From IMG/VR virus record IMGVR_UViG_3300030098_003195, positions 1-20,358 of that record: a DNA stretch of 20,358 nucleotides; one strand, given 5' to 3'. Below the pieces are notes generated by a model that had not been told where the DNA came from, made no database searches, and worked only from the letters and a program-made list of their open reading frames with translations. Shown here piece after piece: positions 22-19,468 of this stretch; positions within the stretch are counted from its first letter, which is position 1, and each line of letters opens with the position of its first letter. The DNA comes from a virus. A program made the position numbers and the translations under genes.

Positions 22-1935
22 TTAGAATTTATTTTTTTCATTTACAGAAAAATCTAATGGATCAGTTGCTGGATCGCTTAAATCAGGAAAATCATTACCA
101 GTAGCAGATGATTCATAAACATAATTTCCAGCATAACCTAATTCTCTAAATATATCTTTTATAATATAAAAAGGCATTCTGTTCCTGCGTTGTTCTTCGT
201 GTAACTGCCTACCAATTACATCTGCATAATAATCAGATTCCAATATATTATCCATCAACATAAAATGTTTATATAAAAAGTTGTGGAATCGAGTTCCTGC
301 ACCCATCTTTTCTTCACCATATTGTGACCCTAAATGTTTAATTCTTACATAATATAATAACTCATTAGAATTTTCTATTCTTATTGGTGAATCTGTTCCA
401 TTATAAGAATTATGTGTATGAGATTGGTCAGGATAAATTGTTCCAATCACATTTGGAACCTCAAATGTTCCTGATATTGTTTCAGCATTAAATTCCTCGA
501 AATAGCCATTATCACCTTTTTTATTTCCACCTAATCTTATTCTAAAATCTGTTGATGATTCACTACCATTAAATCTTGATTTATCATAAAAAAAAGCTGT
601 AAATCTTGTTTTTAATTGTCCAACATCATCTATATAAGCACCACTATCTAAAATAGGTAAAGTAATTGTGCAACCTATTATAGACATTTGAAATACTTGG
701 TTGTTGTTATAATCTGATAAATAAGCAACATCATCATTTTGCAAGTTTCCATTTATATCTTTTGAATATCCACTTACACCATCCCAAGTAGTGTAATCAT
801 TTTCTTTAAATATAGAACCAGCTATTTCATTTTCTTCATTTAATACTGTTGTATAAAATATTTCAGGATTAGTTGAACTTCCTCCACTACCTTCTTCATC
901 TTCACCTTCATCATAATTCATTGTAGATTTTTGCCTTCTTGGATTAATTACATAATCCCTTATCTCATTAATTGCAATAATCTGATTCTTTCCTATTGTA
1001 TTACTTGGTTCTATTTCCTGTCCTGTGCTGGTCGCTATTTCAGGTGATGATATTAAAGTAATTGTGTTTTCTGATATATCATACTGCTCATTAGCTGTAA
1101 ATGAATTTACTGGATTGTCATCGTCATCTTTTTCGCTAAAGTTGATTAATCCGTGAGAACTTGGGATATTACCATAGCCATTAGATTTATAAATATATAA
1201 AGGTGGATTCCTACTTTCATTATTATCATCTATATCATAAGGAAAACTAACAGTAGAATCATTATCAGGAATTATATCAATATTTCCAGCATCTATATAA
1301 TTTTCTGCATCTGTTGCTGGTGCTGATTTTATAACACAAGGTGCTTTTGATACAACACCATAAACCATAGGGATTGGCTTGTTTATATATTTTTTAGGAA
1401 CATCATCTTTTGCACCAGTATTTAATATTGGTAAATCCTTATGCAATTTAGATTGGCTTATATCTTCAACTGATATTGTAGCCTTATCATCTGTATGGCT
1501 ATAATCTCTAATTTTACCTACATAAATTAATAAAAAATCAACCTCATTATTATTTTCTCCACCTTCCCAATATGCTCTATGTGTATTTGGGCTTGTCCAA
1601 TATATTCTAATCTCTTTATTAACAAGTGAAGATGTAATACTTTCTGAAAATCGCACTCCATTATATTTAGAATTACTGATATTTAAAGTAACACTTGATA
1701 TAGTATATTTTCTATTTTCTAAATCGATGGATTCTTTTAATGTAGGGATATTTAATAATATAGGTTTTGCTGTATAACTTTCAGTTTTATCTAAATTATA
1801 ATATGTTAATGAATTTGTGCTTAATCTGATAGGACTGACAACCTGATTGCCTTCCATATTTCCTATTACAACTAATGGAACAAGCTGTGTATTATTTCCT
1901 TGAATATCATTTAAAAAATTTTCTGATATATACAT
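22..1935 (-). CDS. Tail tip/hub structural protein (putative)
   Basis: A 637-residue protein encoded directly after the tape measure gene, the usual place for distal-tail or hub proteins that close the tail tip and carry adhesion parts. Residues 1-190 look like a compact beta-rich domain. It contains a stretch near 139-170 (VGKIRDYS, then SVEDISQSKLHKDLPI) followed by KKYINKPIPMVYG, a pattern I associate with tail proteins of uncultured marine siphophages. Residues about 340-355 form an acidic, Gly/Ser-rich linker, and a second, mostly beta, region follows. There is no signal peptide or membrane segment. The ATG overlaps the tape measure stop by one base (TAATG), which suggests coupled translation. 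The TAA stop lies at 22-24. The structural role rests on position and composition. The precise part (distal tail, hub or tip attachment) cannot be decided here. Confidence 0.6.
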   Translation of the reverse strand: MYISENFLNDIQGNNTQLVPLVVIGNMEGNQVVSPIRLSTNSLTYYNLDKTESYTAKPILLNIPTLKESIDLENRKYTISSVTLNISNSKYNGVRFSESITSSLVNKEIRIYWTSPNTHRAYWEGGENNNEVDFLLIYVGKIRDYSHTDDKATISVEDISQSKLHKDLPILNTGAKDDVPKKYINKPIPMVYGVVSKAPCVIKSAPATDAENYIDAGNIDIIPDNDSTVSFPYDIDDNNESRNPPLYIYKSNGYGNIPSSHGLINFSEKDDDDNPVNSFTANEQYDISENTITLISSPEIATSTGQEIEPSNTIGKNQIIAINEIRDYVINPRRQKSTMNYDEGEDEEGSGGSSTNPEIFYTTVLNEENEIAGSIFKENDYTTWDGVSGYSKDINGNLQNDDVAYLSDYNNNQVFQMSIIGCTITLPILDSGAYIDDVGQLKTRFTAFFYDKSRFNGSESSTDFRIRLGGNKKGDNGYFEEFNAETISGTFEVPNVIGTIYPDQSHTHNSYNGTDSPIRIENSNELLYYVRIKHLGSQYGEEKMGAGTRFHNFLYKHFMLMDNILESDYYADVIGRQLHEEQRRNRMPFYIIKDIFRELGYAGNYVYESSATGNDFPDLSDPATDPLDFSVNEKNKF

Positions 1936-3671
1936 TATGAGAAAGAAACTCCTCTACGAACTGCATCTTTAATTTGTTCAGCTAATTCACCTTCTACAAA
2001 ATCTTGGCTCATTACATTTCCTGATATAGAAACATTAACTGAACCACCACCACCATTTTGATTCATTACAGGATTAAGAGGTGTAATATTTACAGATTCT
2101 GCACCAGCTTCACCTGCTAAAATCATTGTTGGCTGTGAAACTATTTCATTCATTCCAGTGGCTGCAACCTTTGGAACAACTTTTTCAAATAATTGCATAG
2201 CAGCAGCAGCACCAGCAGCACCAGTTGCTAAACCTAATAAACCTTTTTTACCTATCTGTTCTTTTAAAAATCCAGCAATCATTTCTGAAAAATAAGCCTT
2301 TACAACTCGCCTTACTGCATCAATCGCTGAATCTGCTGATGCACCTGTTGCAATAGCTGAATCTATGGTCATTTTCTTGACCTTATCTTTGGCTACCAAT
2401 TCTCCTTCTGCACCTTTTTTACCAGCATCTGTTTTCTTTTTATCACTTTTTTCTATTTCCTCATTCTGAACTATTACAGCATCAGCATATTTTTTATATA
2501 TTTCTTTTTGGGCTTCTATATACTCTCCAAAAGTATCTATATTGTCTTGTGAACCTTGTGTTAATAGTTCAACCATCTGCGAATTAGCCATAGATAAACC
2601 TTCTGTATCTATCAGCTTACTCATCTCCATAGGCTGTATATCAGCACCTAATTTATTAGCTATTTGTGCAAGTGAATTAAATTGCTCTTTAGCAAAATTC
2701 ACCATTCCAATAAAGAAATTCTTTACTTTAGCTATTACAATTTGTATTCCTATTCCTATTGGTTCCCATAAAAAAGCTGATACTGATTTAATTCCTTCCC
2801 ATAAAGCACCTAATGCTTTTAAAGATAGTGGAACCACTTTATTCATATAAAATCCAAATAAATCAGGAATAGTGCTAAAAGCTAAAGAAAAAAGGTCTTT
2901 AATTAATGTAGATAATGCACCCATATTAGTTTTCATATTTTCAAAAGTTGCACTAAAATCAATTTTACCAATAAAATCAAATGCTTCAATCACATCTTCA
3001 CTAAATTTTTTCATCACTTTTGCCCCATCAGTAGCCATAGGTAATAATAAGTTTCCTAATGATTCTGCTGCATCACCCATTGCATTTTTTGCTTGATCCA
3101 TAGCACCTGAAAATGTATGTATTTCTACTTCAGCAGCACCTTTAAACATTTCCCTCATAACTTCAATACCCTTACCAGCTTTTAATTCTTCTGCTGTTAA
3201 TTCTTTTAAGGGTCCAACACTCTCACCTAATTCACCAGTCATTCCAGATAATGTTTTAGCAGTATTCTTTACAGCCGATTCTAAACTCATACCAGTAGCA
3301 GAAGCCAAATCTAATGTTACTGGAATCATATCTTTTATTTGTTGTTCTGATAAACCTATTGAAGCAAGATATGCCTGTTGTTGTATAATAGCTTCATCAC
3401 CAAATCTTGATGTCTGCTGTAATGCCCCTGCCTGTTTTAATAAAGCATCAGTATTTGAACCTAATGCTTGTGCTAATTTTCTTTCTTGAATTTCCTGTTC
3501 TGCTGCTGCATCTGTTGCCTTCTTCATAGCGACACCTAATGCAACTGCACCACCAGCAGCACCCACCATTGCCACTTTTGACAAACTCATTAATGAACCT
3601 GATAATTTTCTTATTCCTGAAGATGCACCTTTAACCCCTCTTGTCGTTACATTAATTAAAAAATTAGGCAT
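1935..3671 (-). CDS. Tail tape measure protein
   Basis: A 578-residue protein that would fill the tail tube, set tail length and help DNA entry. The N-terminus (VTTRGVKGASSGIRKLSGSL) is the amphipathic start typical of tape measures, followed by a hydrophobic Gly/Ala segment at about residues 33-48. Residues 50-250 are long helical Ala/Gln/Glu-rich sequence. Residues about 250-330 are hydrophobic and could insert in the host membrane. A Lys-rich charged stretch lies near 405-435, and a Gly/Ala-rich hydrophobic stretch plus a short beta-like C-terminus (GGGGSVNVSISGNV) follow. By the roughly 1.5 angstrom per residue rule known for tape measures, 578 residues would predict a tail near 87 nm (inference). 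It follows the tail chaperone pair, with the start inside the end of the T frame (8-base overlap), and precedes the tail tip gene. This order is diagnostic for siphophages. Confidence 0.93.
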   Translation of the reverse strand: MPNFLINVTTRGVKGASSGIRKLSGSLMSLSKVAMVGAAGGAVALGVAMKKATDAAAEQEIQERKLAQALGSNTDALLKQAGALQQTSRFGDEAIIQQQAYLASIGLSEQQIKDMIPVTLDLASATGMSLESAVKNTAKTLSGMTGELGESVGPLKELTAEELKAGKGIEVMREMFKGAAEVEIHTFSGAMDQAKNAMGDAAESLGNLLLPMATDGAKVMKKFSEDVIEAFDFIGKIDFSATFENMKTNMGALSTLIKDLFSLAFSTIPDLFGFYMNKVVPLSLKALGALWEGIKSVSAFLWEPIGIGIQIVIAKVKNFFIGMVNFAKEQFNSLAQIANKLGADIQPMEMSKLIDTEGLSMANSQMVELLTQGSQDNIDTFGEYIEAQKEIYKKYADAVIVQNEEIEKSDKKKTDAGKKGAEGELVAKDKVKKMTIDSAIATGASADSAIDAVRRVVKAYFSEMIAGFLKEQIGKKGLLGLATGAAGAAAAMQLFEKVVPKVAATGMNEIVSQPTMILAGEAGAESVNITPLNPVMNQNGGGGSVNVSISGNVMSQDFVEGELAEQIKDAVRRGVSFS

Positions 3672-4077
3672 TATTTTGTTCCTTCTGTTTCTTGTTTGTA
3701 TATTGATTAATTTCTTCTTCTATAATAAAGAAATCATCTATAATATTGGCTGGTGTTTCGTATAAAGATGGATATGGAGGACAATTAAACTGCTTACAAT
3801 ATTGATACTCTTTTATTCTATTCTGAATATTAGTATCAACTAATTGACTGTGATCTGCAAAAAAGAATGATTGTGTATAAATTGCTTCTCCCACATTAAA
3901 ACCCTTTTGTTCTGCTTCATCTGATAGCTTCATAATTTCATCATAAACATCCGAAATTGACTTAAATTCAGCCTTTTGTCTTGTAGATGGACATAGTGCA
4001 GTATAAGGATAAGAAACACCTGTAAAGGCACTATTTTTTAATCCATTTAAGCTAATCCATACATTAATACGAAGCAA
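3664..4077 (-). CDS. Tail assembly chaperone, T-type extension (made by -1 frameshift)
   Basis: This is the downstream half of a lambda G/GT-like chaperone pair. The 137-codon ORF begins only with TTG, has no visible Shine-Dalgarno sequence, and lies in the -1 frame relative to the preceding 89-codon gene. That frame is open from 4095, just after an in-frame TAA at 4096-4098, so ribosomes slipping back one base on A AAA AAA (4095-4089) would enter it. They would read Lys-Ile-Asp-Glu-Leu before the residues listed here, giving a fusion of about 230 residues over 3664-4355. The extension is mixed alpha/beta with a Cys-containing part (YCKQFNCPPYPSLY) and an acidic helical tail. Known GT fusions bind the tape measure through the T part while G contacts tail tube subunits. 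Its position just before the tape measure gene agrees. Independent translation from TTG is the less likely alternative. Confidence 0.8.
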   Translation of the reverse strand: MLRINVWISLNGLKNSAFTGVSYPYTALCPSTRQKAEFKSISDVYDEIMKLSDEAEQKGFNVGEAIYTQSFFFADHSQLVDTNIQNRIKEYQYCKQFNCPPYPSLYETPANIIDDFFIIEEEINQYTNKKQKEQNNA

Positions 4078-4085
4078 TAATTCAT

Positions 4086-4355
4086 CTATTTTTTTTTATT
4101 AGCAAATTCAAATATCGTATTTGCTATGGCTATTATTTCATCAGTTGAATATTTATTTAATTCCGATTCTTTTAATTCAGTATATTTTAAAACTACACTA
4201 CCCCACCAAGAAAAAGAAGGCATTGATCCATTTGAATTTTCCTTGATCATCATATCATTTAATTCACATCTTTTCTTCCAATCAATTTCTTTTATAGGTA
4301 TTTGAAAAGTTTTAAAATCCTGATTCTCTGCTGGTTTTACTTTTATTTCAGCCAT
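4086..4355 (-). CDS. Tail assembly chaperone, G-type
   Basis: An 89-residue soluble helical protein between the tail tube and tape measure genes, the position of gpG-type tail assembly chaperones that keep the tape measure soluble during tail building. It begins with a short beta-like stretch (MAEIKVKPAENQDFKTFQIP), continues with helices around residues 25-80, and ends in three Lys codons followed by TAG. The Lys codons form an uninterrupted nine-A run on which -1 frameshifting into the next ORF is expected, so most product would be this short form and a minority the long fusion. The ATG lies two bases after the tail tube stop with no clear SD, which suggests re-initiation by ribosomes finishing the tail tube gene. 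The sequence itself is not one I recognise. The call depends on position, size and the frameshift signal. Confidence 0.8.
   Translation of the reverse strand: MAEIKVKPAENQDFKTFQIPIKEIDWKKRCELNDMMIKENSNGSMPSFSWWGSVVLKYTELKESELNKYSTDEIIAIANTIFEFANKKK
4089..4097 (-). promoter_or_regulatory. Programmed -1 frameshift slippery site
   Basis: The minus strand reads AAT followed by nine A residues and then TAG. The last seven A residues (4095-4089) fit the X XXY YYZ heptamer as A AAA AAA in the frame of the G-type gene, and the next zero-frame codon is the stop. Slipping back one base keeps full AAA pairing in both tRNA sites and continues as ATA GAT GAA TTA TTG into the T frame. No strong downstream hairpin is visible by eye in the following 60 bases. 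The adjacent stop codon and homopolymer may suffice. Transcriptional slippage on the A run would also give the fusion. Confidence 0.8.
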
Positions 4356-5389: not shown

Positions 5390-5586
5390 TATTTATTCTC
5401 CTTCTTTGTTTTTTTTATTTTTTTATTTAATTCATCAAAACAACCTTCAAATTCTTTAGGGATTTCATTCATAGTAACAGGAAGCCCAGCTACAAGCAAT
5501 CCGTGCTTACTATGGCTTCCTTTAGCCCTAAAATCTTTCTTTTCACCTAAATCAAAATACTTATTATTTGCTTTATATTGTGCCAT
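5389..5586 (-). CDS. Small basic protein between tail terminator and tail tube
   Basis: A 65-residue hydrophilic protein with a Lys-rich C-terminus (KKIKKTKKENK) and a short central hydrophobic patch (HGLLVAGLPVTM). No known family is recognised. It sits eight bases after the tail terminator-like gene, is preceded by a recognisable SD (TAGGAG), and its stop overlaps the tail tube start (TAATG). Its reading frame therefore appears constrained by both neighbours and it is probably translated with the tail genes. A role in tail assembly is suggested only by context. The lysine tail could bind nucleic acid or an acidic partner, but nothing in the sequence settles this. Confidence 0.65.
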   Translation of the reverse strand: MAQYKANNKYFDLGEKKDFRAKGSHSKHGLLVAGLPVTMNEIPKEFEGCFDELNKKIKKTKKENK

Positions 5587-11797: not shown

Positions 11798-12219
11798 TCC
11801 TTTATTAACTCAAAATGTGGTAAATCATCAAATGTATTCTTGCTAAAATCTATTTTTCCATTTTCAAAACCTCTCCAATTTCCACCCCATCTAACCTTGT
11901 GTTTCATCTGCCCTACATCATATAACATATCAGCCATAGCCAACACCATCCCTGCAAAATAAAAGAATCTTTCTCTATCATTCCAATCAACTGGATAAGG
12001 AACAACATCAACTGCATTTGAAGGCATCGCATTGTGCCTACCATTTGGATATTTAGCTTTGGAATGTCCTTCAGCTACTGCTTTATCCTGATCTTTTTTA
12101 TTCCTATATCCACATAATACAGAACAATCAACTTGCTCTATTACTTGATTGAATAATATTTTTAAATCAGTATGACAAGTATTTAATCTTTTTTTTGATG
12201 TGCTTCCGAATTTAGGCAT
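11794..12219 (-). CDS. Endolysin, M15 family peptidase (VanY/L-Ala-D-Glu type)
   Basis: A peptidoglycan-cleaving endolysin of the zinc peptidase M15 family, which cuts peptide cross-bridges in the cell wall. With the start used here it has 141 residues. Numbered from an upstream ATG at 12234, the visible zinc ligands are H67 (in GRHNAM), D76 (in NAVDVVPYP) and H140 (in DDLPHFEL). D137 lies three residues before the last His, as the catalytic Asp does in known endolysins. The block RWGGNW at 115-120 is also typical. I prefer the ATG at 12219 because family members begin MPKFG, and this start overlaps the upstream stop by eight bases. The 12234 ATG has no SD and would add five residues. There is no signal peptide, so export depends on the neighbouring holin-like proteins. 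Confidence 0.88.
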   Translation of the reverse strand: MPKFGSTSKKRLNTCHTDLKILFNQVIEQVDCSVLCGYRNKKDQDKAVAEGHSKAKYPNGRHNAMPSNAVDVVPYPVDWNDRERFFYFAGMVLAMADMLYDVGQMKHKVRWGGNWRGFENGKIDFSKNTFDDLPHFELIKE

Positions 12220-14848: not shown

Positions 14849-15079
14849 TTATTTTTTATAATTTTTGTTTAAAGTTCCTTTGCCAAACCCTGAAAAAACT
14901 CCCAGTACACCCTGCCTTTTTTTTGAACTTTCAGCTCTTTCTTGCATTTCATCTAAATAAGAATTATAATTTAGCTTTGAGCCTTTATAAGTGGCATCAA
15001 TATCACCATCTGGAGTTATTTTGTGATCAAAATCTCCTCGTGGGTCTAAATCTATATTTCCTAATTTATTATTCGCCAA
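14849..15079 (-). CDS. Small protein between scaffold and capsid, TTG start
   Basis: A 76-residue hydrophilic protein between the scaffold and capsid genes. It contains short Asp/Gly-rich strands (GNIDLDPRGDFDHKITPDGDIDATYKG), a helix (SYLDEMQERAESSKKRQG) and a basic C-terminus. No family is recognised. The only start in its N-terminal part is TTG at 15079. An in-frame TAG lies two codons upstream and the first internal Met is near residue 45. A strong SD, GGAGGT at 15098-15093, precedes it by 13 bases, and the ORF overlaps the scaffold 3' end by 11 bases, which suggests coupled translation. Its role is likely in capsid assembly because of its neighbours. Frameshift extension of the scaffold was considered and judged less likely. 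Confidence 0.65.
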   Translation of the reverse strand: MANNKLGNIDLDPRGDFDHKITPDGDIDATYKGSKLNYNSYLDEMQERAESSKKRQGVLGVFSGFGKGTLNKNYKK

Positions 15080-15715: not shown

Positions 15716-16180
15716 TTAGTTAATATTAATATTAATTTTTTTTCTTCTTATCTTTCTTCTTATTTTTTTAAATGCACCTTTTACATCTTTATCTAATTCC
15801 TTCATCACAAACTTTTCACATTCATCAGGCAATACTTTACTTTTAGTATATAAAACTCTACCCATCTTTGCAAGTTTCTCTATCTTACCTTTTTGGGCTA
15901 TTGCACCAAATCCAAACCCAGTTTTATGTGATTTAAATGCTTTAAAATCTCTTAATAAATCTGATGTTAATACTGGTGATCTTGATTCTTTAAATTCTGA
16001 TGCTTGTCTAAATAATCTTCCTGATTGTTTTCTTTGCTCATACTTTTGGCTGTATCTATCATAAGGCTTCCCATATATATCTTTAGCATCTCTACCTTTT
16101 GATGTTGTTCCAAATATATGCTTACGATAACAAGCTACTGTATCTATTCCTAAACCTGCCCAAAATTTAGCATCAAGCAT
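15716..16180 (-). CDS. Virion morphogenesis / tail completion-like protein
   Basis: A 154-residue basic protein after the MuF gene, overlapping it by eight bases, with an AGAGGA SD inside that gene. The N-terminal part (FWAGLGIDTVACYRKHIFGTTSKGRDAKDIYGKPYDRYS) and the centre (SRSPVLTSDLLRDFKAF) recall Mu gpG/phage virion morphogenesis proteins and HK97 gp10-type proteins, which have a 'Y...K....L..TG.L..S' core. The end is Lys/Arg-rich (KKIRRKIRRKK) and then INININ, encoded by an AT repeat. It lies in the head gene block although some relatives act in tail completion. The resemblance is by pattern and not certain. Its function as a neck or head-completion component is inferred from position. 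Confidence 0.5.
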   Translation of the reverse strand: MLDAKFWAGLGIDTVACYRKHIFGTTSKGRDAKDIYGKPYDRYSQKYEQRKQSGRLFRQASEFKESRSPVLTSDLLRDFKAFKSHKTGFGFGAIAQKGKIEKLAKMGRVLYTKSKVLPDECEKFVMKELDKDVKGAFKKIRRKIRRKKINININ

Positions 16181-16901: not shown

Positions 16902-18236
16902 TTATACTGGTGTTGTTAATGCCTGTAATAATGGTGATGTTGGTTCTTCTTCTGTTTCTTCTACTCCTGATCTTTCAGCCAAATAATCTAAAGCATCTTG
17001 TCTTTCAGGATATTTATCAGGATTTTGTTGCATCAATATATCAGCTTTATCTATCAATCCATTAGCTAATTCCCAATCCCATTTAGCCCTCTTTTCTTCT
17101 TCTGATAATATTTCAGTTGATTCTTCAAAATCTACACCTAATAAAAATCCAGCATCCTGACCTTTTTCAACTGCTATTATTCTTTCTTCTATTTCAAATA
17201 TCTTACTTTCAATCTCTTTCCATCTTACTACATCACTTCTTCTGCTATCCATTAACTCTTGATTCCTTAATCTTAAAGCAACACCTGATTCAGCAGTAGT
17301 TCCTTCTACAAATGAAACTGATAGATGATAATTCTGTGCTAACATTTTATAACTTTCCTTAATTGAATCAGTTAATGCTGGAACACTATTAGGAGGTGCA
17401 ACCATATTCAATACTCCATCGTGTCCTAAAAATGACCACTTATCCTGACCTATATCTAATTGCTCTTTTTCAATATTGCTACCAGTTATATATCCAAATC
17501 CGAATGACTGGAACATAATATTAGCATTCTTGTTATATTCAGCTACATTGATTGAAGTATTGGTAGCTATCAAACAAGAAGAAGCATCTGTATCAAAATA
17601 GCTTGATTCAGGCTTACCATCTCTATAACATTTAACGAAAGGTAGCATATTGTAAGGATTCACCATATCTTCATTACCATCTTGAGCCATCTTTTTACCA
17701 GTTCCTTTTTCATAAATAAAATGATTCTCCATATCCCAATAAGCCCATAGTTCAGCAGTCGTATCTAATACAGATGATCTAACTTGTAATGGATAAGTAA
17801 TAGCAGTTGGCTCTAATGGATCATCACCATAAAACAAAGGTTCCCAATCTCTGATAATATCGTATTCAATATGTTCATTTCTCCAAGTAGGTTTCACCAA
17901 TACACATTCCAGTAAATTAGTTAATCTTTCCAACCTTTGCATTTTAAAATCTTTATGATGAAAGAAATCAATTACATTCTCATTAGAGTATTCCCTGATC
18001 GGTGCCTTCATATATACCAAGCTAATTCTGTCTATCACTCTTTTAGTAATATTAATATTAGGGCAAGGTATTTGCTTATTTAAACTGCTTGAGAAGAAGG
18101 CTTTAGTATATGCTTCAGTTCTACCTTTATAATAATTGTAGGCTTTTTCTCTTGTTTGCAACCACCTCTTTTTTTCTTGATCTTGCCATTCTACTTTTGA
18201 CATCTCTACTGCTAATTGGGCTGTTGAAGGTATCAT
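16902..18236 (-). CDS. Portal protein
   Basis: A 444-residue portal subunit, the size expected for siphophage portals (about 400-500), which forms the dodecameric ring for DNA entry and exit and docks terminase. It overlaps the large terminase stop by four bases (ATGA), as is common. Recognisable features are the N-terminal charged helix (VEWQDQEKKRWLQTREKAYNYYKG), the ring-building core with NINITKRVIDRISLVYMKAP at about 60-80 and the long C-terminal helical part containing TTAESGVALRLRNQELMDSRRSDVVRW and an acidic region (EESTEILSEEEKRAKW). The C-terminus is acidic and Pro/Leu/Gln rich (EETEEEPTSPLLQALTTPV). The first residues MIPSTAQLAVEM start at an ATG in the TerL stop region. Confidence 0.87.
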   Translation of the reverse strand: MIPSTAQLAVEMSKVEWQDQEKKRWLQTREKAYNYYKGRTEAYTKAFFSSSLNKQIPCPNINITKRVIDRISLVYMKAPIREYSNENVIDFFHHKDFKMQRLERLTNLLECVLVKPTWRNEHIEYDIIRDWEPLFYGDDPLEPTAITYPLQVRSSVLDTTAELWAYWDMENHFIYEKGTGKKMAQDGNEDMVNPYNMLPFVKCYRDGKPESSYFDTDASSCLIATNTSINVAEYNKNANIMFQSFGFGYITGSNIEKEQLDIGQDKWSFLGHDGVLNMVAPPNSVPALTDSIKESYKMLAQNYHLSVSFVEGTTAESGVALRLRNQELMDSRRSDVVRWKEIESKIFEIEERIIAVEKGQDAGFLLGVDFEESTEILSEEEKRAKWDWELANGLIDKADILMQQNPDKYPERQDALDYLAERSGVEETEEEPTSPLLQALTTPV

Positions 18237-19468
18237 CTTTGAATACTCCCTGTTATAGGTTTAATTATTGGAAATTCATAATCAATGGCATATCTCAAAC
18301 CATCTGAAAAGTGAGTTCTATCTTTATTGCTTTTGTCAATCTCTCTTGTTCCTTCTTTATTAACTGTCTGCTCTAAATCTGTTACTAATCCTTTACATCT
18401 TGGATCAATTATTAAATCATTTTCACATATCTTATTAACTGCATTAACACTATCAATAATTCTTGGTGCTTTAGGCTTCACCATAACTTTAAATCCATTC
18501 TGTCTTAATATATCGTGATCTGTATGTAGTGCAGATGTATGCCTTTGATTAGCTGGATCAGGATAAACTATATATTCTTTATTAGGATATTTACTTTTAA
18601 TCTCTTGAGCCATTCTTTCAGTTAAGATTTCGGATCCTCCGCTATGATGTAATTCAATTTCATCGAACACCCTGACTTTCGGTGTGTTGTTGTAGGTTTG
18701 GAATATTGAACAAGCCATTGGGGAAACATTGAAGTCAATCGCTGCTCGTATCGGTAAGGAAGGATTATATTTGTTTTCTTTGACATTATCACCTCTATTA
18801 AAATTGTAATATGTAGCACCTTGTTGAAGATTAACAAATTCACCATCAAGATATGCTTTTAATAATGTTTCATCATAGTTCTGTTTTAAGCTATCTATAA
18901 ATTCCTGTGGTAGCATTGCATTATCTTCTGTTTTACCTCTGATTAATTTGTATCCATCTGTGGGATTATCTCCCCAATACTTATAAACAAACTTAAAGCC
19001 TTCAGGGGTTCCACTACCAAATGCAGTTAATGTGTTACCATCTCTTAATCTTGATAATAACATTTTCCAAGCCCTGTCATCTCTTAACTGATCTGCTTCA
19101 TCTATACCACCAGCAGCTAAATTTAATCCAGCCCATCTTTGATAAGATTCACAACTTCTCATAATAACATCACACCAACCCTGCTTCCAATATACTCTAT
19201 ATTTTGTAGCTGATGCTGTATATTCATAATTAAATCCAGCTTGTCTTAATACTTGTTCAAATGTTGGCTGTAATACATCTCTAATCATTGGATAAGTAGG
19301 CTCTGCAAGTAATATTGTTTTACCAGCATTTTTAGCACATTGTTTTAAAGCAAATACACAAAATCCATAAGTCTTTCCTGAACCATATCCACCTAATAAG
19401 AAAGGATATTTATCTTCACTCATTACATAATCTAACTGGTGTTGAAATAATTTAAATGAGTTCGACAT
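18233..19468 (-). CDS. terL: Large terminase subunit (ATPase-nuclease)
   Basis: A 411-residue terminase large subunit, the motor that translocates DNA into the procapsid and cuts concatemers. The ATPase domain shows Walker A GGYGSGKT at 26-33, Walker B with Asp123 and Glu124 in GGIDEADQL, and the coupling motif GSGTPEG at 151-157. The nuclease domain shows Asp245 in AAIDFNVSP, Asp304 in VYPDPAN and Asp389 in HFSDGLRYA, the three acidic residues expected in an RNase H-like active site. The full length agrees with typical proteins of 400-550 residues. The small terminase gene precedes it and overlaps by 17 bases; the portal gene follows with a four-base overlap. All catalytic residues are present, so it appears functional. 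Confidence 0.97.
   Translation of the reverse strand: MSNSFKLFQHQLDYVMSEDKYPFLLGGYGSGKTYGFCVFALKQCAKNAGKTILLAEPTYPMIRDVLQPTFEQVLRQAGFNYEYTASATKYRVYWKQGWCDVIMRSCESYQRWAGLNLAAGGIDEADQLRDDRAWKMLLSRLRDGNTLTAFGSGTPEGFKFVYKYWGDNPTDGYKLIRGKTEDNAMLPQEFIDSLKQNYDETLLKAYLDGEFVNLQQGATYYNFNRGDNVKENKYNPSLPIRAAIDFNVSPMACSIFQTYNNTPKVRVFDEIELHHSGGSEILTERMAQEIKSKYPNKEYIVYPDPANQRHTSALHTDHDILRQNGFKVMVKPKAPRIIDSVNAVNKICENDLIIDPRCKGLVTDLEQTVNKEGTREIDKSNKDRTHFSDGLRYAIDYEFPIIKPITGSIQR

Follow-up and report, generated by a model that had tools for sequence, protein, structure and literature searches.

A tail assembly chaperone pair that is made by a change of reading frame is known from phage lambda, in which two overlapping frames, G and T, lie between the genes for the major tail protein and the tape measure protein; T has no start of its own and is entered by a -1 shift on the sequence GGGAAAG, close to where G ends. 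The yield of GT in lambda is 1 in 30, and the survey by Xu et al. (2004) is said to be the standard one for G/GT sites. The lambda-type shift has been described as ribosomal (PMC5009743), A_AAA_AAA is among the heptamers known to recode in bacteria (PMC3711429), and AAAAAAA has been proposed as the heptamer in the tail assembly genes of Paenibacillus larvae phages (PMC6256562). Bacterial RNA polymerase also slips efficiently on nine A's (PMC5009743), with insertions that grow exponentially with run length (PMC5574713), and in tssM an A11 run ahead of the stop slips at the RNA level at 20 to 25% (PMC4256274). In reporters for magnesium chelatase genes, a run of seven A's gave 10% shifting and a run of nine gave 40% (PMC3711429), and in a purified E. 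coli system there was little ribosome sliding on A9 or A10 (PMC4363877). The slippage sites of Thermus dnaX, Shigella mxiE/spa13 and Citrobacter tssM share with the locus described here an A/T homopolymer of about nine or more, an extension in a second frame and independence from a stem or a Shine-Dalgarno (SD) stimulator; unlike it, they lie in cellular genes, are backed by RNA-level or reporter proof, and include no phage tail chaperone. No phage tail chaperone ascribed to transcriptional slippage was found in the open-access papers searched.

The locus lies in a stretch of 20,358 nucleotides (hereafter the window), positions 1 to 20,358 of the 22,185-base virus record IMGVR_UViG_3300030098_003195, which is AT-rich (32% G+C). 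Its layout resembles that of lambda in the overlap of two frames flanked by the genes for a putative major tail protein and a tape measure protein, in the -1 relation near the end of G and in the lack of a start for T (Table 1); it differs in that the slip run is A9, or A10 in some relatives, and in that G stops at the slip or within five codons of it. Read on the minus strand, G ends AAU AAA AAA AAA UAG (N K K K stop), and the -1 frame reads UAA, then AAA AAA AUA GAU GAA, and stays open for 141 codons counted from AUA, which begins at the last A of the run. An annotation drawn up earlier from the sequence alone (the first-pass annotation) had pointed out the nine-A run ending in A AAA AAA directly before TAG and the TAA of the -1 frame, both of which are present as described; the open -1 frame that it reported also stands, its length of 137 codons being that obtained by counting from the UUG at 4077, the earliest codon that could serve as a start. 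A single A9 in such a window is unremarkable by chance (one found against 2.6 to 4.3 expected under Markov models), and it is its retention at this position by 44 non-redundant loci, the window included, that exceeds chance. Elsewhere on the minus (coding) strand, four A8 runs occur, at 5409-5416, 12189-12196, 14917-14924 and 15736-15743, and a second A9 was not found in the window.

Table 1. Features of the chaperone junction and flanking genes in the window
Feature	Coordinates	Strand	Evidence
G, tail assembly chaperone, 89 aa, N-terminal part of GT	4086..4355	-	ORF; gene position; predicted fold pLDDT 91; IMG/VR relatives
A9 slip run	4089..4097	-	A at 9/9 positions in 42/42 core loci
Slippery heptamer A AAA AAA, in-frame	4089..4095	-	Sequence; L025 has A AAA AAG
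UAG, zero-frame stop of G, abutting the run	4086..4088	-	Immediate stop in 26/44, 2-5 codons later in the rest
UAA in -1 frame, upstream of the heptamer, where it closes the T frame	4096..4098	-	Sequence
T, 141-codon -1 extension without own start (stop included)	3664..4089	-	phrog_9001; protein conservation from codon 1; predicted fold pLDDT 95
Tape measure protein, 578 aa, start overlapping end of T	1935..3671	-	phrog_991 E 4.5e-12; Pfam TMP_2 E 5.6e-5, short of the family cut-off
Putative major tail protein, 343 aa	4358..5389	-	Called by position only; unmatched in Pfam and PHROG

We assign G and T, from sequence and gene order, to the G/GT tail assembly chaperone pairs, as the predicted product of programmed -1 recoding in an uncultured siphovirus-like phage. 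The assignment follows from several lines of reasoning: (i) the gene after T is clearly that of the tape measure protein; (ii) phrog_9001, "tail assembly chaperone", is matched by T with E 1.3e-4, and 10 of its 31 members reach E<=0.01; (iii) the confidently predicted fold of G weakly matches BFVD models whose names are tail assembly chaperone or tape measure chaperone (TM about 0.5, E 0.3 and above); and (iv) the first helix of the predicted T fold starts at residue 2, directly at the slip. Two of the features by which a G/GT pair is recognized were found, T following the end of G in the -1 frame without a start of its own and a slippery sequence being conserved at the frame change. The proposal of a G/GT pair in the first-pass annotation is thus supported by the run kept in homologues, by T without a conserved start or Shine-Dalgarno sequence and by the lack of a conserved downstream stem. 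Among PDB folds, G gave a weak match only (5ir0_B, Z 5.5) and T nothing useful; the sequence of G matched no known family, Pfam held no convincing match for G or T, its chaperone families included, and a PDB sequence profile search returned nothing convincing. T and the putative major tail protein were unmatched in 50,697 phage records, as was T in genome_contigs. A single Rfam match, to snR87, fell below the gathering score and is regarded as chance.

Relatives were collected from IMG/VR with T as a single query and then with profiles (up to 53 loci per scan); the junction was readable in 54 loci besides the window, and removal of near-copies left 44 non-redundant loci, which share ancestry, so that the counts given here are not independent. 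The same layout is common to all 44, with A9 in 36, A10 in seven and A8 followed by G in one (L025); set against the length of about 8-9 or more A/T required of a slipping homopolymer, 43 of the 44 thus have A9 or A10 and one has A8. The A9 stands in the phase of the window in 35 loci and in another phase in L062 (GUA AAA AAA AAU), the heptamer is in frame in every locus (as A AAA AAG in L025), and no locus has only seven A's. In the 42 core loci, the codons of G adjoining the nine invariant positions vary freely, and the junction is still kept where G has fallen to about 21-35% identity to that of the window and T to 41%. On a tree of T, run length changed at least six times and stop position at least seven times; A10 and the place of the stop thus changed repeatedly, and the run never shrank below A8 plus G. 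Conservation of the A run in homologues, a check that the first-pass annotation had proposed, therefore came out in its favour; its signal of homopolymer plus adjacent stop was upheld for the run, but the place of the stop is not constant, being immediate in 26 of the 44 and 2-5 codons later in the others.

The zero frame of G is nevertheless closed within five codons in all 44 loci, whereas the same frame elsewhere in T meets a stop at once in 7% of cases and within five codons in 36%; it closes more often here than elsewhere in T, and G therefore appears meant to end there. The T protein is conserved in alignment from the first codon after the slip, and differences in the codons right after it amount to 0.41, 0.21 and 0.53 at positions 1, 2 and 3; with the third position most variable, T is therefore evidently meant to be read. 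Three members call for separate mention. L025 (2985-3000) is the sole one with a broken run, its A8 and G being followed by UAA. L062 (2986-2994) is the most distant, and its zero frame ends NPVKKNGNSV, five codons past the slip. L005 (2756-3417) lies on a 4.9-kb contig in which part of T also matches the opposite strand, directly adjoining, and was excluded from the counts, the assembly being probably chimeric.

That the junction serves -1 recoding, whichever machine slips, we hold to be almost certain. Most ribosomes would halt at UAG and yield G, while a minority of products would go on in the -1 frame at A9 to give a G-T fusion; if lambda is a guide, this fusion would connect the major tail protein with the tape measure protein. 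In the explanation that we favour, RNA polymerase would, by adding one A, create a substantial part of the GT messages, beside ribosomes slipping on A AAA AAA. Dependence on run length, and hence a substantial share of the polymerase, is suggested because nine or ten A's are kept though the ribosome needs seven, and because the other genes read contain no run of nine or more. When synonymous codons were shuffled within the 208 other genes of these loci, with the proteins kept, 9.6 runs of nine or more A's were expected and none was found, while A7 and A8 were only mildly reduced; had the in-frame heptamer alone counted, a reduction of the longer runs to the same degree (to about 0.6) would have left about six, on counts that come from related, non-independent sequences. 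One A9 does occur elsewhere in the loci, outside the ORFs of the shuffle count. A Markov test that had pointed to no avoidance whatever of A7 and A8 was superseded by the synonymous-shuffle test, which shows mild avoidance.

Competition from RNA polymerase slippage had been raised in the first-pass annotation, and the strict run length favours the polymerase as at least a contributor. On this comparative evidence we lean, by a little, towards a substantial polymerase share in the making of GT messages; -1 recoding and a mechanism dependent on homopolymer length, taken jointly, appear probable. The further proposition, that the whole phage family makes its chaperone fusion mainly by polymerase slippage on A9/A10 and that the G:GT ratio is set in transcription, seems to us unlikely. 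Several considerations count against the polymerase: (i) other genes contain 20 in-frame A AAA AAA runs no longer than seven, fewer than the 31.9 expected (the other phases being as expected), which, together with A AAA AAG in L025, is what ribosomal slipping would lead one to expect; (ii) the needs of the protein could explain why the first lysine is kept; and (iii) efficient polymerase slippage on A9 would yield far more GT than in lambda. A fusion peptide cannot tell the polymerase from the ribosome, because both yield the same NKKK-I junction.

The strongest alternative is that, in the manner of classical G/GT phages, the ribosome alone shifts to the -1 frame on A AAA AAA and that the two extra A's are incidental or kept for the protein; we regard it as quite possible, if somewhat improbable. 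The heptamer is in frame in all 44 loci, its variant in L025 is the E. coli dnaX heptamer, in-frame heptamers are mildly avoided in other genes, and the use of A_AAA_AAA in bacteria and its proposed use in P. larvae phages, cited above, give it precedent. Such a heptamer would, however, not need nine A's, yet none of the 44 loci has just seven, and L062 kept the length of its run despite the move in phase; the scarcity of ribosome sliding on A9 and A10 in the purified system also speaks against it. Nor was a downstream stem-loop or an upstream SD-like element, as in the stimulated -1 frameshift of the dnaX type, found as a shared feature: no downstream structure is common to the family (mean fold z -0.02 to -0.54), in agreement with the first-pass annotation, which had seen no obvious stem in the window, and an SD-like upstream stimulator occurs in 1 of 42 loci only. 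The segment upstream of the A run (4097-4149, minus strand) folds better than its shuffles in the window (z -2.8), a property not shared by the family (mean -0.6). A nascent hairpin upstream of the run could in principle help polymerase slippage.

It is very improbable that T is instead translated separately by reinitiation after the stop of G. A UUG lies at 4077 in the window, 8 nt past UAG, and UUG occurs among T codons 4-6 of a few relatives, but in 25 of the 44 loci the first 30 T codons hold no ATG, GTG or TTG (in L030 there is none for 127), and reinitiation therefore cannot make T in these 25. Neither a conserved start nor an SD for T was found among the 44 loci, the first-pass annotation had rightly noted the lack of ATG and SD ahead of T in the window, and the conserved residues of T begin at codon 1, so that most of the family can have no separate start. 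Some sequencing platforms are prone to errors in homopolymers, but that an assembly or sequencing error splits what is truly one frame has a negligible chance and is set aside because the same frame relation repeats in 44 independent contigs from many metagenomes, all with a zero-frame stop within five codons, which loci with A10 retain through the phase of the run.

With -1 recoding at the junction, a group of uncultured phages joins those that recode G/GT, by a well-known phage trick and with an ordinary kind of system; it also provides 44 sites for comparison, among which nothing but the slip run is invariant. Should the polymerase be what slips, the stoichiometry of the tail chaperones would be fixed at the RNA level in these phages. 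Here T would be cut short or overlooked by annotation pipelines that demand a start codon for it.

Other phages, too, have an A9 where G passes into GT. In the Fernvirus Arcticfreeze, a phage of P. larvae (L074, 1428-1436), the published heptamer sits inside an A9 (GCA AAA AAA AAG), and phage Dash likewise has A9 followed by G; Arcticfreeze and the present family thus both have A9 at the tail chaperone junction, with no sequence relation shown between them. The distant relative Geobacillus GR1 lacks the A9, and LincolnB has GGAAAAAAC, whereas the family described here keeps the run throughout, and, as judged from the sequences compared, it is this persistence across a diverse family that is unusual. 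As to the wider affinities of the phage, the large terminase of the window (18233-19468) has its nearest matches, at 36-38% identity, in siphophages of marine cyanobacteria (among them S-H1, KBS-S-2A and MED4-184).
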